Both the position numbers and the translations under genes were made by a program. The notes beneath the pieces were generated by a model. The model had not been told where the DNA came from and ran no database searches. It was given only the letters and a program-made list of their open reading frames with translations. A stretch of 48,634 nt of DNA from Gemmatimonadota bacterium (GTDB lineage Bacteria; Gemmatimonadota; Gemmatimonadetes; Longimicrobiales; Gaopeijiaceae): NCBI GenBank assembly GCA_009692205.1, contig SHZR01000004.1:1-48634 (forward strand), written 5' to 3'. Position 1 is the stretch's first letter. Each line of letters begins with the position of its first letter. Positions 14,294 to 17,856 of this stretch are shown in pieces.

Positions 14294-15154
14294 ATGTTTG
14301 CTTCCTCGCGCGGCCTGGATTCGTTCGACCAGTATCTGCAGGACGTAGAGAAATACCCGCTCATACAGGATCCCCACGAGGAGCGCGAGCTCGCCCGACG
14401 AGCGCGCGTGGGCGACAAGGAGGCGGCCGAGCGACTGGTCACGGCCAACCTCCGATTCGTCATCTCCTACGTGAAGAAGTATCAGGGCCGCGGCCTGGGG
14501 CTCGCCGAGTTGGTCTGCATCGGCAACGAAGGCCTGCTCAAAGCGGTGAAGAAGTTCGATCCGGACAAGGGGGTGAAGTTCATCTCCTACGCCGTGTGGT
14601 GGATCCGGCAGACGGTGCTCCAGGCGCTCGCCGAGCAGACCCGCTCCGTACGCATCCCGCTCAACCAGAACTCCAACCTCGCCCGCCTCTCCCGCACCGA
14701 CACCCAGCTCACGCAGTCGCTCGGGCGCTCTCCGACGGACCAGGAGATCGCCACCGAGATGCAGGAGCCGGTGGATACGGTCCGGGCGCTTCGTCGAGTG
14801 GCCGCCTCCGAGTTGAGCCTCGACGCGCCGATCGACCGGGGAGACCGGGACAGCGCAAGCTTTGGCGAGCGATTTGCAGGAGCTGAGCCGGGAAATATCG
14901 AGGAGGACGTCGAGTCGGTGGCCCGGCGCGACTTCCTCGAGACCATGTTCGCGTCGTACCTGACCGAACGCGAGCGGAAGATCCTCTATCTGTACTATGG
15001 ACTCGACGACGGCGAGGAGCGCACCCTCGAAGAGATCGGCTCGCTTCTCGGCGTCACGCGGGAGCGGATCCGGCAGATCCGCAACCGCGCCTTCGAGAAG
15101 CTACGGGAGAGTCCTCACGGCGAGTCCCTCTCGGGGTTCTGGAGCGCTCACTAG
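14294..15154 (+). CDS. RNA polymerase sigma-70 factor, RpoD-like group 1/2, compact
   Basis: 286 residues. Region 1.2 (DSFDQYLQDVEKYPLI), region 2 (ANLRFVISYVKKY, then FISYAVWWIRQ for -10 recognition), region 3 (NLARLSRTDTQL through ELSLDAPI) and region 4 (LTERERKILYLYYG, then GVTRERIRQIRNRA helix-turn-helix) are all present in order. It lacks the long acidic region 1.1 of full RpoD, so its size matches the compact primary or group 2 factors typical of several phyla. Whether it is the main sigma factor or an alternative RpoS-like one cannot be told from this window. A GAGGA lies about 15 nt before the ATG, a loose ribosome binding site. Confidence 0.93.
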   Translation: MFASSRGLDSFDQYLQDVEKYPLIQDPHEERELARRARVGDKEAAERLVTANLRFVISYVKKYQGRGLGLAELVCIGNEGLLKAVKKFDPDKGVKFISYAVWWIRQTVLQALAEQTRSVRIPLNQNSNLARLSRTDTQLTQSLGRSPTDQEIATEMQEPVDTVRALRRVAASELSLDAPIDRGDRDSASFGERFAGAEPGNIEEDVESVARRDFLETMFASYLTERERKILYLYYGLDDGEERTLEEIGSLLGVTRERIRQIRNRAFEKLRESPHGESLSGFWSAH

Positions 15155-15161
15155 TGGGCTT

Positions 15162-15179
15162 GGCCGCCTGAGGGCGGCC
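15162..15179 (+). other. Perfect hairpin at the sigma / barrel-protein junction
   Basis: GGCCGCC, loop TGAG, GGCGGCC: seven perfect GC pairs starting 8 nt after the sigma factor stop, with no T-run following. It could attenuate transcription, or control translation of the next gene, because the most plausible start codon (CTG at 15168) lies at the stem-loop boundary. Confidence 0.6.
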
Positions 15180-17198
15180 TCCATCGCGACGGCCGCATCG
15201 CTCGCGGCGTCGCTGGGCCTGGCGCTTGCCGCCTCGGCTTCCGCGCAGGCCCCCTCCTGGAACGACCCGAGGGTGCTCGATCTCGTCGGGCGTGCCCGCG
15301 CGGTGCGAAGCTCCGCTGCGGTAGACTCCGCCTTCCGCTCGTACAAGGCCCAAGCTCGAGGCTACGTCTACTTCTTCTTCGATCGACCGGACACGGGCAA
15401 CCGCACGCTCGTGAAGGCCGACCAGGTCGCCCTCGACGTCTACTGGCAGGCCCCGAACTCGACCAAGCAAGTGATCGTCGGTCAGCGTGATCAGCAGATG
15501 CTGCCGACCGACATCCGCTACCACCTCGACCATCTGACTGTCGTGCAGGACGACTTCGGCGACTCCATCAGCATGGGTGACGGCGACGAGGTCGAAGCGG
15601 TCCCCCATCCCGTGGGACCGGGCTCCGACGGCGTGTACGACTTCCTCCTCGCCGACTCGCTCAGCATCAGCTACGCGGGCGGCGCGGAGGAGATCAGGGT
15701 GTACCAGGTGCGCGTGCGGCCTCGCGACTTCGAGCGACCGGGCTTCGTCGGCACTGTGTTTCTCGACAGGGCGACCGCCGCCATCGTGCGCATGAGCTTC
15801 TCGTTCACGCCGGCGTCGTACGTCGATCCCTACGTCGACTACATCCGCATCTCGCTCGACAACTCGCTCTGGATGGGGCGCCACTGGCTTCCCTATCGAC
15901 AGGAGGTGGAGATCCGCCGCGAGATCCCTCTGCTGGACGTCATGGCCGGGAGCGTAATCAGGGGACGATTCGAGATCCGTGGATACGACTTCGATGTCGC
16001 CCTGCCGCTCTCGCTGTTCGCGGGAGGGCGCGTGAGCACGGCGTCTCCGGCCGCGCGCGCGGCGTTCCCGTTCGAGCGCGGCCTACTCGACGACATCGAG
16101 GAGGAGGGGCTCGACCTCTCGCCTTCGCTGGAGGAGGTGCGCACCGAGGTCGCGCAGGTGGTGCAGGATCAGGTCGTGAGCGGCCTCGACCCGTTCCGTC
16201 TCTATTTCGCGGCCGTGTCCGAGGCGGCGCGGTACAACCGTGCCGAGGGGCTGCGCCTCGGCGGCGGATTTACGCTTCGGCCCGCGGAGTCTCTCATGAT
16301 GCGCGTCTCCGGCGGATACGCGTTCGGCCGAGAGCGGGCCTCCGGGGCGGTCTCCACGACGCTCAGTCCCGGACGCGTGGTGCCGACGCTCGACCTCTAC
16401 TGGGACGCCCTCGGCGACGTGGGCGGCTATCTCGGCGCGTCGACGCTCGAGAACACCATCTCCGCCGTCTCGGGCAAGAAGGACTACACCGACCCCTTCT
16501 TCAAGCGAGGCGCGGCGCTCACGCTCGGCGGGGCGGACCCGGCTGGGCCCGCGGTGACGTTCCGCTGGGAGGAACATCGGAGCGCGCGGGACGTCGTGTC
16601 GGACGACCTCGCCGACACGGACTTCCGCCCCGTCCGCACCATCGACGAAGGCGCGCTCGGTGCCGTGTCGGTGCATGCCCCTGTGACGCTGCCCGGAGGG
16701 GGAGCCGCGAGCCTCACGGGGGACGTGGGGCGCCTCGAGACCCGCACGTTCGGCTCGCTCTCCGGAGAGGCCCTCTGGGAGATTCGGGCCCTCGACCACC
16801 CCTGGAGGGCCGAGCTGTCCCTCGGTGCCGGTGCGATCACCGACGACGCCCCCGCACAGAACCTCTTCCTCCTGGGAGGTCGTTGGACGCTGCCGGGCCA
16901 CGACTACCGCTCCTTCGCGGGCGACCGCTATTGGCTGCTCAAAGGGGAGGCCACCTGGTCGGTCTATGCGCCCTACGTCGGCGTGCGTGCGATCGGCGCG
17001 GTCGGCGCCACCTATCTTGGCTCCCGCAGCCTTCCCGCGGACTGGATGGTCCAAAACTCGGACGGGCTGCGCGGGTCCATCGGCGCAGGGCTGTCGCTCG
17101 GCTGGGATGCCATGCGCGTCGACATCGCCCACGGTGTCCGAGGTGGTGGCTGGGAGGCGCTCTTCTCGGTCGCGAGGCAGTTCAGGGACTGGCTGTAA
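15168..17198 (+). CDS. Exported outer-membrane beta-barrel protein, unknown function
   Basis: About 676 residues. A signal peptide (AASIATAASLAASLGLALAA then SASAQAP) is followed by a soluble N-terminal domain (to about 310) and a C-terminal half of alternating amphipathic strands rich in Gly, Tyr and Arg, ending in ARQFRDWL, consistent with an outer-membrane barrel with a short non-standard terminus. The layout recalls large surface proteins with an N-terminal regular domain (DUF5686-like), but I cannot assign a family firmly. No ATG, GTG or TTG is available in frame between the sigma stop and the signal peptide; CTG at 15168 is the only usual near-cognate codon, so the exact start is uncertain. 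It probably depends on read-through from the sigma gene. Confidence 0.75.
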   Translation: MRAASIATAASLAASLGLALAASASAQAPSWNDPRVLDLVGRARAVRSSAAVDSAFRSYKAQARGYVYFFFDRPDTGNRTLVKADQVALDVYWQAPNSTKQVIVGQRDQQMLPTDIRYHLDHLTVVQDDFGDSISMGDGDEVEAVPHPVGPGSDGVYDFLLADSLSISYAGGAEEIRVYQVRVRPRDFERPGFVGTVFLDRATAAIVRMSFSFTPASYVDPYVDYIRISLDNSLWMGRHWLPYRQEVEIRREIPLLDVMAGSVIRGRFEIRGYDFDVALPLSLFAGGRVSTASPAARAAFPFERGLLDDIEEEGLDLSPSLEEVRTEVAQVVQDQVVSGLDPFRLYFAAVSEAARYNRAEGLRLGGGFTLRPAESLMMRVSGGYAFGRERASGAVSTTLSPGRVVPTLDLYWDALGDVGGYLGASTLENTISAVSGKKDYTDPFFKRGAALTLGGADPAGPAVTFRWEEHRSARDVVSDDLADTDFRPVRTIDEGALGAVSVHAPVTLPGGGAASLTGDVGRLETRTFGSLSGEALWEIRALDHPWRAELSLGAGAITDDAPAQNLFLLGGRWTLPGHDYRSFAGDRYWLLKGEATWSVYAPYVGVRAIGAVGATYLGSRSLPADWMVQNSDGLRGSIGAGLSLGWDAMRVDIAHGVRGGGWEALFSVARQFRDWL

Positions 17199-17203
17199 GC
17201 AAA

Positions 17204-17232
17204 GAGGCTCGGGGGCGGAGCCCCCGAGCCTC
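17204..17232 (+). terminator. Strong stem-loop after the barrel-protein gene
   Basis: GAGGCTCGGGGGC, loop GGA, GCCCCCGAGCCTC: a perfect 13-bp stem beginning 5 nt after the stop codon. There is no T-run, as is common for hairpins in GC-rich genomes, so it may terminate or stabilise the mRNA end. Confidence 0.7.
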
Positions 17233-17237
17233 TGCGT

Positions 17238-17267
17238 CGTGGTGGAAACACCACGCCCGGCCGTCAA
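17238..17267 (+). repeat. Inverted partial copy of the neighbouring tRNA-like gene
   Basis: CGTGGTGGAA and CACGCCCGGCCGTCAA, read on the plus strand, match the 5' half of the tRNA-like gene on the minus strand (its D arm and the 5' side of the anticodon arm), with four differing bases between the two blocks. The copy itself folds as GTGGTG-GAAA-CACCAC, a 6-bp stem with a GAAA tetraloop. The two copies are about 110 nt apart in opposite orientation. Confidence 0.6.
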
Positions 17268-17323
17268 CATCCCAGGTCTGCTGACCCGGTGTGGCTGAGT
17301 TAACCTCTTCAAGACACGTGGTG

Positions 17324-17406
17324 TACCCCCGGAGGAAGTCGAACCCTCACGAGCCGCAGTTCACCCGATTGACGGCCGGGCGTGTCTACCATTCCACCAC
17401 GGGGGC
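17324..17406 (-). tRNA. Class II tRNA-like gene, leucine-type body with GTC anticodon
   Basis: The minus strand folds as a cloverleaf: acceptor GCCCCCG/CGGGGGT, D arm GTGGAATGGTAGACAC, anticodon stem CCCGG/TCGGG, a 15-nt variable region, T arm GAGGG-TTCGACT-TCCTC, and A73. The body closely follows bacterial tRNA-Leu (long variable region, G1:U72 and TGGTGGAAT as in leucine GAG tRNAs). The loop CCGTCAA puts GTC at 17373-17371, an Asp anticodon, and has C at position 33, where U is nearly invariant. CCA is not encoded (ACAC follows). It is therefore either a tRNA pseudogene, a tRNA with an altered anticodon loop, or an unusual functional tRNA; isotype cannot be assigned safely. Confidence 0.6.
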
Positions 17407-17490
17407 ACCTCACACTGCGAGATGGCGGATATGGTCCTGATACCCGACTGCCAGTGACGGCCGCGCAGACCACGCTGACCGGGCGTTCCC

Positions 17491-17856
17491 CTACGCGGCC
17501 TCTTCCATCGCCTCCGACGCCGCTTGCCCCTTCGAGGTGAGCAGCACGACCTCGTTGACGTGGATCTCCGCGGTCGGGATCACCACGCCGTCACGCTCGT
17601 AGGAGTCGTACTCGAGGCGCCCCTCGATGTAGATGCGATCGCCGGTGCGGATGTAGTCCTCCGCGAACTGCGCCTGCTTGCTCCACACCGTGAGACGGTG
17701 CCAGTCGGTCCGCTCCTGCTCGTCCGACCCGGCTGGCGCGCGACGGTTCGTCGCGATGGAGAAGTGGGCGGCCTTGGTTCCGCTCTTGGTCTGCTGGATG
17801 TCCGGATCGCGCCCGACGTTTCCAATCAGGGTAATCTTGTTCACGGACCGGCTCAT
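17491..17856 (-). CDS. ssb: Single-stranded DNA-binding protein, short form
   Basis: 121 residues, one OB fold: SVNKITLIGNVGRDPDIQQT, then TDWHRLTVWSKQAQFAEDYI and GDRIYIEGRLEYDSYERDG are canonical. It binds single-stranded DNA as a tetramer in replication and repair. Residues after about 110 are QAASEAMEEAA; the Gly/Pro-rich linker and the acidic DDDIPF-type tip that recruits partner proteins are absent. It is therefore shorter than the usual 150-180 residues and may be a paralogue rather than the main SSB. It lies downstream of polA on the same strand, across a 133-nt gap. Confidence 0.93.
   Translation of the reverse strand: MSRSVNKITLIGNVGRDPDIQQTKSGTKAAHFSIATNRRAPAGSDEQERTDWHRLTVWSKQAQFAEDYIRTGDRIYIEGRLEYDSYERDGVVIPTAEIHVNEVVLLTSKGQAASEAMEEAA

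Follow-up and report, generated by a model that had tools for sequence, protein, structure and literature searches.

Introduction

In type I toxin-antitoxin pairs such as hok/sok, a stable toxin RNA and a labile antisense RNA are encoded by adjacent genes that overlap on opposite strands. SdsR/RyeA is an RNA-RNA toxin-antitoxin system, in which the toxin and the antitoxin are both RNAs. Unusual tRNAs have been described separately. The tRNA-ProX/ProRSx systems of Streptomyces and Kitasatospora comprise tRNAs with a proline body and A34 anticodons for alanine, asparagine and threonine, adjoined by a dedicated synthetase (PMC11415595; PMC10365949). The allo-tRNAs of Acidobacteria, Proteobacteria and Clostridia are charged by seryl-tRNA synthetase (SerRS) and have an 8/4 or 9/3 acceptor branch (PMC7609411).

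The window, i.e., the whole stretch of 48,634 nucleotides analysed here (contig SHZR01000004.1 of a Gemmatimonadota bacterium), carries a leucine-type tRNA gene with an aspartate anticodon, followed on the same strand by an inverted copy of part of that gene (Table 1). Related pairs form a family in Gemmatimonadota and were found in about 40 genomes, a total tallied by hand. On balance, we favour the interpretation that the two genes form a two-RNA module, in which a leucine-inserting, misreading tRNA would act as the toxin and an antisense RNA masking its anticodon as the antitoxin.

Table 1. Features of the locus and their positions in the window.
Feature	Position	Strand	Remarks	Evidence
Convergent membrane-protein-like (OMP-like) ORF	14997..17198	+	Conserved flank; reveals empty sites in relatives	
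Proposed antisense small RNA	17201..17267	-	5' anti-anticodon segment, hairpin, terminator-like hairpin	
14-bp hairpin	17203..17233	.	Both the convergent OMP-like gene and the proposed small RNA end here; the minus strand has a short run of T	
10-nt perfect complement	17238..17247	-	To the tRNA acceptor/D-arm 5' strand	
16-nt perfect complement	17252..17267	-	To the tRNA D-stem 3' strand, anticodon stem 5' strand and anticodon loop	
Weak promoter-like site preceding the copy	17275..17303	-	TTAACT-17-CAGACC, 6/12; most relatives strong there (TTGACT-17-TAnnnT)	
Leu-bodied class II tRNA (proposed toxin)	17324..17406	-	Anticodon GTC (Asp), C33, A73, no encoded CCA	ARAGORN, RF00005, isotype profile
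Anticodon GTC	17371..17373	-		ARAGORN position 34 and sequence
tRNA leader CATCTCGCAGTGTGAGGT	17407..17424	-	Upstream of the tRNA; identical in relative G003, similar in the G103 elements	
SSB (single-strand binding protein) neighbour	17491..17856	-	Upstream of the module	

The tRNA Gene of the Window

An earlier note on this DNA had described a class II tRNA body with the anticodon loop CCGTCAA, which gives the anticodon GTC and has C in place of U at position 33. All of these features were confirmed: RF00005 matches the gene at 17406-17324(-) with 44.9 bits (gathering threshold, 29), and the discriminator base is A73. ARAGORN names the gene tRNA-Asp (GTC), a label that rests on the anticodon. 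In an isotype comparison of the kind proposed in the note, with the anticodon arm masked and with profiles trained on 45 Leu, 4 Ser and 1 Tyr sequences, the body of the tRNA proved to be of the leucine type, scoring 39.5 bits with the Leu profile versus 7.5 bits with the Ser profile; with profiles of equal size, the Leu score was 25-39 versus 7.5 for Ser in ten of the 20 draws. The long V arm and the best match to the Leu profile thus set this gene apart from an ordinary tRNA-Asp, which has a class I body.

The cloverleaf had been described as good in every arm. It is not perfect throughout, however: one of the five V-arm pairs is broken (A-C), and G-U pairs occur elsewhere. Among the 29 tRNA matches of the host genome assembly (2.7 Mb, 61 contigs), the window tRNA has the lowest score, 44.9 versus 55.3 bits for the next-lowest. 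The window's member may be a weakened copy of its family, possibly one on its way out. No standard promoter box was recognised for the tRNA itself, though its leader is conserved. A group I or II intron and a tRNA-targeting integration were considered and rejected, the Rfam scan of the window giving tRNA only.

An ordinary tRNA-Asp is absent among the 29 tRNA matches of the window's genome (G000). Since several other isotypes are absent too, this is probably due to incompleteness of the assembly.

The Inverted Copy and Its Flanks

The inverted copy reported in the earlier note is indeed present next to the tRNA. It consists of perfect 16-nt arms (17252-17267 and 17369-17384), separated by 101 nt, and of perfect 10-nt arms (17238-17247 and 17392-17401). 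The GAAA-capped hairpin of the copy was found as well, on the plus strand; the strand of the tRNA reads UUUC at this place. The joint fold of the region has a predicted energy of -121.2 kcal/mol (z = -6.85), and none of 200 shuffled sequences was as stable. In the fold model of the window small RNA, UUGACGGCC is unpaired. The duplex energy of this RNA with its own tRNA is -55.0 kcal/mol, compared with -19.0 to -36.5 kcal/mol for 25 ordinary tRNAs of the same genome, all of these energies being crude estimates. A strict consensus scan of 17150-17520 revealed neither a promoter nor a terminator.

In the convergent OMP-like ORF, the first 50-60 residues (14997-15160) have matches at separate sites across many genomes of the family, often interrupted by stops. 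Based on these separate matches with internal stops, the true start of the ORF is probably later, and 14997-15160 is probably some other conserved feature.

In a relative of the same genus (G003), a tRNA gene occupies the equivalent site, next to the same convergent ORF. Its loop, TTGCGAG, gives the anticodon GCG, and the copy downstream of it is altered in step with the anticodon; between the window and G003, six pairs of the long-range helix are changed on both sides. Three further elements, with the loops CTGGAAC, GCGTCAC and CTCTCAC and a matching copy each, were found at unrelated places of another genome (G103). The strict 5' pattern matches in only 2 of 121 family genomes, and of 30 loci fetched for the neighbouring ORF, only 2 contain the tRNA. 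In two genomes (G001 and G132), the ends of the ORF and of the SSB gene lie close together with no tRNA between them, which indicates that the module comes and goes.

Distribution of the Family

Covariance models built from 2, 5 and 38 elements (R1-R3) were run over 154, 394 and 395 genomes, respectively, with at most 17 candidates per genome scored in the first run and at most 6 in the other two. Because so few candidates per genome were scored in the large scans, the prevalence of the family is a lower bound. In the last run, 57 matches scored 95 bits or more; they are spread over 36 of the 395 genomes (counted by eye). Most of the weak matches that were opened, with scores not above about 80 bits, proved to be ordinary tRNA-Leu genes.

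After exclusion of two spurious pattern matches (L048 and L121 minus), 99 credible Leu-pattern tRNAs were recognised in the fetched loci by a parser that worked without ARAGORN. Of these, 65 have a non-Leu anticodon and 34 a Leu anticodon. Downstream sequence complementary to the anticodon region (10 or more of 11 positions pairing, at least 9 of them Watson-Crick) accompanies 62 of the 65 tRNAs with non-Leu anticodons versus none of the 34 ordinary tRNA-Leu genes, a contrast that is biased upward because the loci were found by models favouring pairing. The three tRNAs below the threshold are L116 (13/14 by another measure) and two genes of L175, one of which is visibly decayed. A genome free of this bias, G188 (one contig), contains 42 distinct tRNAs by RF00005 and ARAGORN, 37 of them with at least 120 nt downstream. 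There, a complement occurs only at three Leu-bodied tRNAs with the anticodons GCG, GCC and GCC (Arg/Gly), where 10-11 of 11 positions form Watson-Crick pairs; the next best tRNA reaches 8 of 11. The unbiased check thus agrees with the association of tRNA and antisense gene. G188 also has an ordinary Gly-GCC tRNA.

The decayed gene of L175 (G332:C96, from about position 52) is a Leu-bodied tRNA with the anticodon CAC that has lost its T arm; it lies upstream of an intact element and has no antisense copy.

Four elements carry inserts in the T loop, each immediately 5' of the T-loop CGA, and retain the antisense match. Two of the inserts, both in G103, are 145 and 146 nt long and homologous to each other (L090, about 1590-1740; L091, about 1400-1550). 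The other two, on the minus strands of L139 (G341) and L180 (G382), are about 45-50 nt long and have a common 3' end, GTGCTTCGCAA. Folded alone, the inserts are no more stable than shuffled sequences (z of about -0.7). They may represent introns, inactivating insertions or a new domain. Directly downstream of the C137 element, positions 1791-2054 of L090 give a weak match to the bacterial large SRP RNA (37.9 bits; cut-off, 60).

Identity and Anticodons of the tRNAs

With the anticodon arm masked and the unequal training sets given above, the Leu profile was the best for 62 of 62 elements; with equal training (4 Leu and 4 Ser sequences), it was the best for 40 to 62 of the 62 over 20 draws. The discriminator is A73 in all 59 elements with a clean acceptor end, and A37 is found in 62 of 65. 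C33 occurs in 18 of 65 elements versus 0 of 34 ordinary tRNA-Leu genes. As parsed, the 65 tRNAs display 14 anticodons, the most frequent being CGC (17), CAC (10), GCG (9), GTC (7), GCC (5) and GAC (4), followed by CTC (3), GGC (3), GGT (2) and one each of GGA, CGG, TTC, GAT and TCG, the last of which, read in L181, is probably a shifted CGC. With TCG and one CAC omitted, 63 anticodons remain, and 54 of them match a codon among the nine most frequent non-Leu ones, a ranking taken from the 23 ORFs of the window only. These genes therefore have the character of dual-identity tRNAs, i.e., the body of one isotype (Leu) with the anticodon of another. The suggestion of the earlier note that a leucine-charged tRNA would misread other codons fits all of these findings.

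Selection on Both Folds

In an alignment of 38 elements, the antisense helix, which in the model also comprises the V and T stems, is formed in 94.8% of 1335 cells versus 74.6% in shuffled controls. Changes on both sides were observed at 26 of its 36 pairs, and its covariation amounts to 0.589, as opposed to 0.206 for shuffled partners and no more than 0.107 for slid ones. The alignment (A6) was fitted to the hairpin model, which favours the results for this helix and not those for the acceptor and anticodon stems of the cloverleaf. Despite the differing anticodons, each of the three anticodon columns pairs with the copy belonging to the same element without exception (38 of 38). In the same elements, the cloverleaf is formed in 96.0% of 920 cells, with a covariation of 0.614 versus 0.180 and with double changes at 18 of 25 pairs. 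Compensatory changes thus preserve both the cloverleaf and the antisense pairing. Departures in the long helix comprise 79 G-U versus 23 A-C pairs, and this excess points to pairing by an RNA of the tRNA's own strand, although its P value is unreliable, related sequences being counted separately.

These data bear on the origin of the locus. The window member alone, low-scoring and mismatched, would suit a decayed tRNA-Leu accompanied by a half copy that arose by chance or recombination, but for the family this explanation is refuted by the recurrence of the pair with varied anticodons and by the compensatory changes, and we regard it as extremely unlikely. The earlier note had supposed that nearby recombination or gene conversion altered the anticodon arm; this finds no support, as the pair recurs across genomes, the copy tracks the anticodon in every aligned element and a promoter-like site of its own precedes it. 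A low-scoring pseudogene, which the note had named as the outcome that would overturn its proposal, does not describe the family either, given its preserved and strongly covarying cloverleaf. Pseudogene and assembly error are both rejected for the family by the covariation in the two folds.

The Putative Antisense RNA

The promoter and duplex statistics cover 62 elements, L107, L181 and one of the two L175 genes being excluded. In the 48 nt before the copy, the sigma70-like site scores on average 8.16 out of 12, as compared with 6.29 ± 0.10 in shuffled sequences (best of 200, 6.56). A typical site is TTGACT-17-TAnnnT and ends about 8 nt short of the copy. A terminator-like hairpin with T's follows the copy in 53 of 62 elements. 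It is thus most likely that the copy is a separate small RNA, preceded by a sigma70-like promoter and usually followed by a terminator. The predicted RNA begins with nine nucleotides that are more open than those of shuffled RNA (0.60 vs 0.44), resembling a toehold. By the same crude duplex energies as above, in 15 genomes with multiple elements, its own small RNA is the best binder, compared with those of the sibling elements, for 37 of 39 tRNAs; when the small RNAs of all genomes are compared, the cognate one outdoes every foreign one for 27 of the 62 tRNAs.

Antisense cassettes were also observed outside the usual pairs. The minus strand of L107 (G334:C110) has one Leu-bodied GCC tRNA followed by three tandem antisense cassettes of differing specificity, one cognate and two orphan; all three have a promoter-like site as well as a terminator-like hairpin. 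In L165 (G197:C3), positions 748-860 form an orphan cassette with the promoter-like site TTGACTCGGC and a terminator-like hairpin, without an adjoining tRNA. Both the tandem and the orphan cassettes suggest a separate small RNA.

It is conceivable, but highly unlikely, that the two halves form a single-transcript long hairpin (an attenuator or RNase III site) or a DNA palindrome belonging to a mobile element, and that the copy does not give rise to a small RNA of its own. Both halves do lie on one strand and fold jointly with the low z-score reported above, and comparison with G001 and G132 shows the element to be an insertion. Arguments against such a structure are the promoter-like site at a fixed distance before the copy, the separate terminator-like ends, the tandem and orphan copies with promoter sites of their own, and the one-strand G-U bias.

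Genomic Neighbourhood

A partner protein for the module was sought and rejected, the neighbours of several elements being unrelated to each other. Among the 20 neighbour proteins checked, no synthetase was detected, and no nuclease was a constant neighbour; UPF0102, a protein with a weak nuclease-related match, was a neighbour in one case. A phage or plasmid origin of the window element was likewise rejected: blastn gave only partial tRNA-like or short matches to phages and plasmids, and two partial matches that were opened both lay on ordinary tRNA-Leu genes. For element L112, blastn against phages and plasmids gave no match. Two viral pattern scans were negative as well.

The neighbourhood also bears on whether the tRNA could be a decoy or sensor, i.e., bait for phage- or rival-derived anticodon nucleases, which bait the antisense RNA would keep folded away or release on cleavage. 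The part that varies is the anticodon loop, where such nucleases act, and the antisense covers exactly that loop. Nevertheless, bait should resemble the true tRNA of its anticodon, whereas the body is always of the leucine type, and no nuclease that would explain it is a constant neighbour. A role as bait is therefore judged distinctly unlikely.

Proposed Mechanism and Function

The pairing, covariation and promoter-like site correspond to an RNA-RNA (type VIII-like) toxin-antitoxin arrangement, that is, two noncoding RNA genes with one complementary to the other. From this arrangement we infer leucine charging, expression of both RNAs, masking, toxicity and a trigger, as follows. Leucyl-tRNA synthetase, as established for E. 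coli, ignores the anticodon and reads A73 and the body. The product of the first gene, a Leu-bodied tRNA bearing the anticodon of another amino acid, should therefore be charged with leucine and would put it at common Ala, Val, Asp, Gly, Arg or Glu codons. The second gene, on the same strand, would start some 8 nt downstream of a -10 box of its own, yielding a small RNA of about 70 nt, the 5' end of which would exactly complement the anticodon arm of the tRNA, with the pairing extending into the D arm. This pairing would hide the anticodon, open the D arm and disrupt the tRNA fold, so the tRNA would be silent while the small RNA is produced. If transcription halted upon phage infection, stress or loss of the locus, the short-lived antisense RNA would be gone before the stable tRNA, and mistranslation would follow. 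The outcome would be an RNA-only toxin-antitoxin or abortive-infection module.

The multiple copies with different anticodons, the orphan cassettes and the dead tRNA without antisense fit the toxin-antitoxin reading better than a housekeeping role. Several points count against it. The window member is weak, having the lowest score, C33, the V-arm break, a weak promoter site and no promoter or terminator by the strict scan; the search models and the alignment favour the pairing; C33 elsewhere in the family could mean poor decoding; the searches with the window element and L112 gave no sign of plasmid or phage carriage; and the four T-loop inserts should spoil the tRNA, yet the antisense still matches.

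Regulated, useful mistranslation, with the tRNA as a stress tool and the antisense RNA as a rheostat rather than an antidote, is unlikely, but deserves consideration. Useful mistranslation has been argued for the proline tRNAs of Streptomyces, and dual-identity tRNAs with both toxic and beneficial effects are known (PMC10365949; PMC11415595). C33 would weaken decoding, paralleling the A33 or G33 of known mistranslating tRNAs (PMC11415595). Such a role does not sit well with several modules of different anticodons in one genome, the patchy presence among species of one genus, the fast change of anticodon at one locus and the orphan antisense cassettes. These modules, their patchiness and their turnover look selfish or defensive, and no special synthetase is found nearby.

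Returning to the toxin-antitoxin reading, a more specific version can be put forward tentatively, with slightly less than even confidence. The family may serve as an RNA-only addiction or phage-defence system of Gemmatimonadota, in which the toxin tRNA would recode the most-used codons to leucine, the antidote would match it letter by letter, the anticodon would diversify rapidly, and orphan antidote arrays, such as that of L107, would confer immunity. If the toxin-antitoxin reading holds, the genetic code itself would serve bacteria as a poison, a codon-breaking tRNA being kept safe by a small RNA, and a toxin-antitoxin mechanism would exist that involves no protein. It would also provide a function for the wrong-anticodon tRNAs that annotation pipelines mislabel by anticodon (as Asp, Ala, Val, etc.) and would offer anticodon-specific mistranslation switches.

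Comparison with Known Systems

Similar to tRNA-ProX, which is toxic in E. coli, the family combines the body of one isotype with the anticodon of another and has an unusual base 33 (PMC11415595; PMC10365949). It differs from tRNA-ProX in its Leu body, mostly G34 or C34, no synthetase among the 20 neighbours and a matched antisense gene; neither a Pro body, nor A34, nor a neighbouring ProRSx was found, the anticodons being GTC, CGC, CAC and others. With allo-tRNAs it shares very diverse anticodons and a synthetase that ignores the anticodon, SerRS in their case (PMC7609411). Unlike allo-tRNAs, it has a 7/5 branch and Leu identity (7-bp acceptor, 5-bp T stem, A73). The word 'antisense' is absent from the reviews PMC11415595 on tRNA-ProX and PMC7609411 on allo-tRNAs. 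A full-text literature search, which reached only a minority of subscription papers and no bioRxiv preprints, found no description of a mistranslating tRNA with an antisense RNA or antitoxin.

CreTA likewise pairs an RNA toxin that strikes translation with an RNA antitoxin. In that system, the toxin CreT acts by sequestering a tRNA, and the antitoxin CreA, which derives from a CRISPR repeat, works by guiding Cascade, whereas here the toxin would be the tRNA itself and the antitoxin would pair with its anticodon arm. As in hok/sok, the two genes are adjacent, and a stable toxin RNA and a labile antisense RNA are proposed; unlike in hok/sok, no toxin protein is encoded, and the genes stand in succession on one strand instead of overlapping. 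Each half of the module thus has precedents, while the pair with an antisense gene tracking the anticodon has none in the literature that the search reached. If the toxin-antitoxin reading holds, it becomes a testable question whether other odd tRNAs with diverse non-cognate anticodons, for example, the allo-tRNAs, have hidden antisense partners as well.
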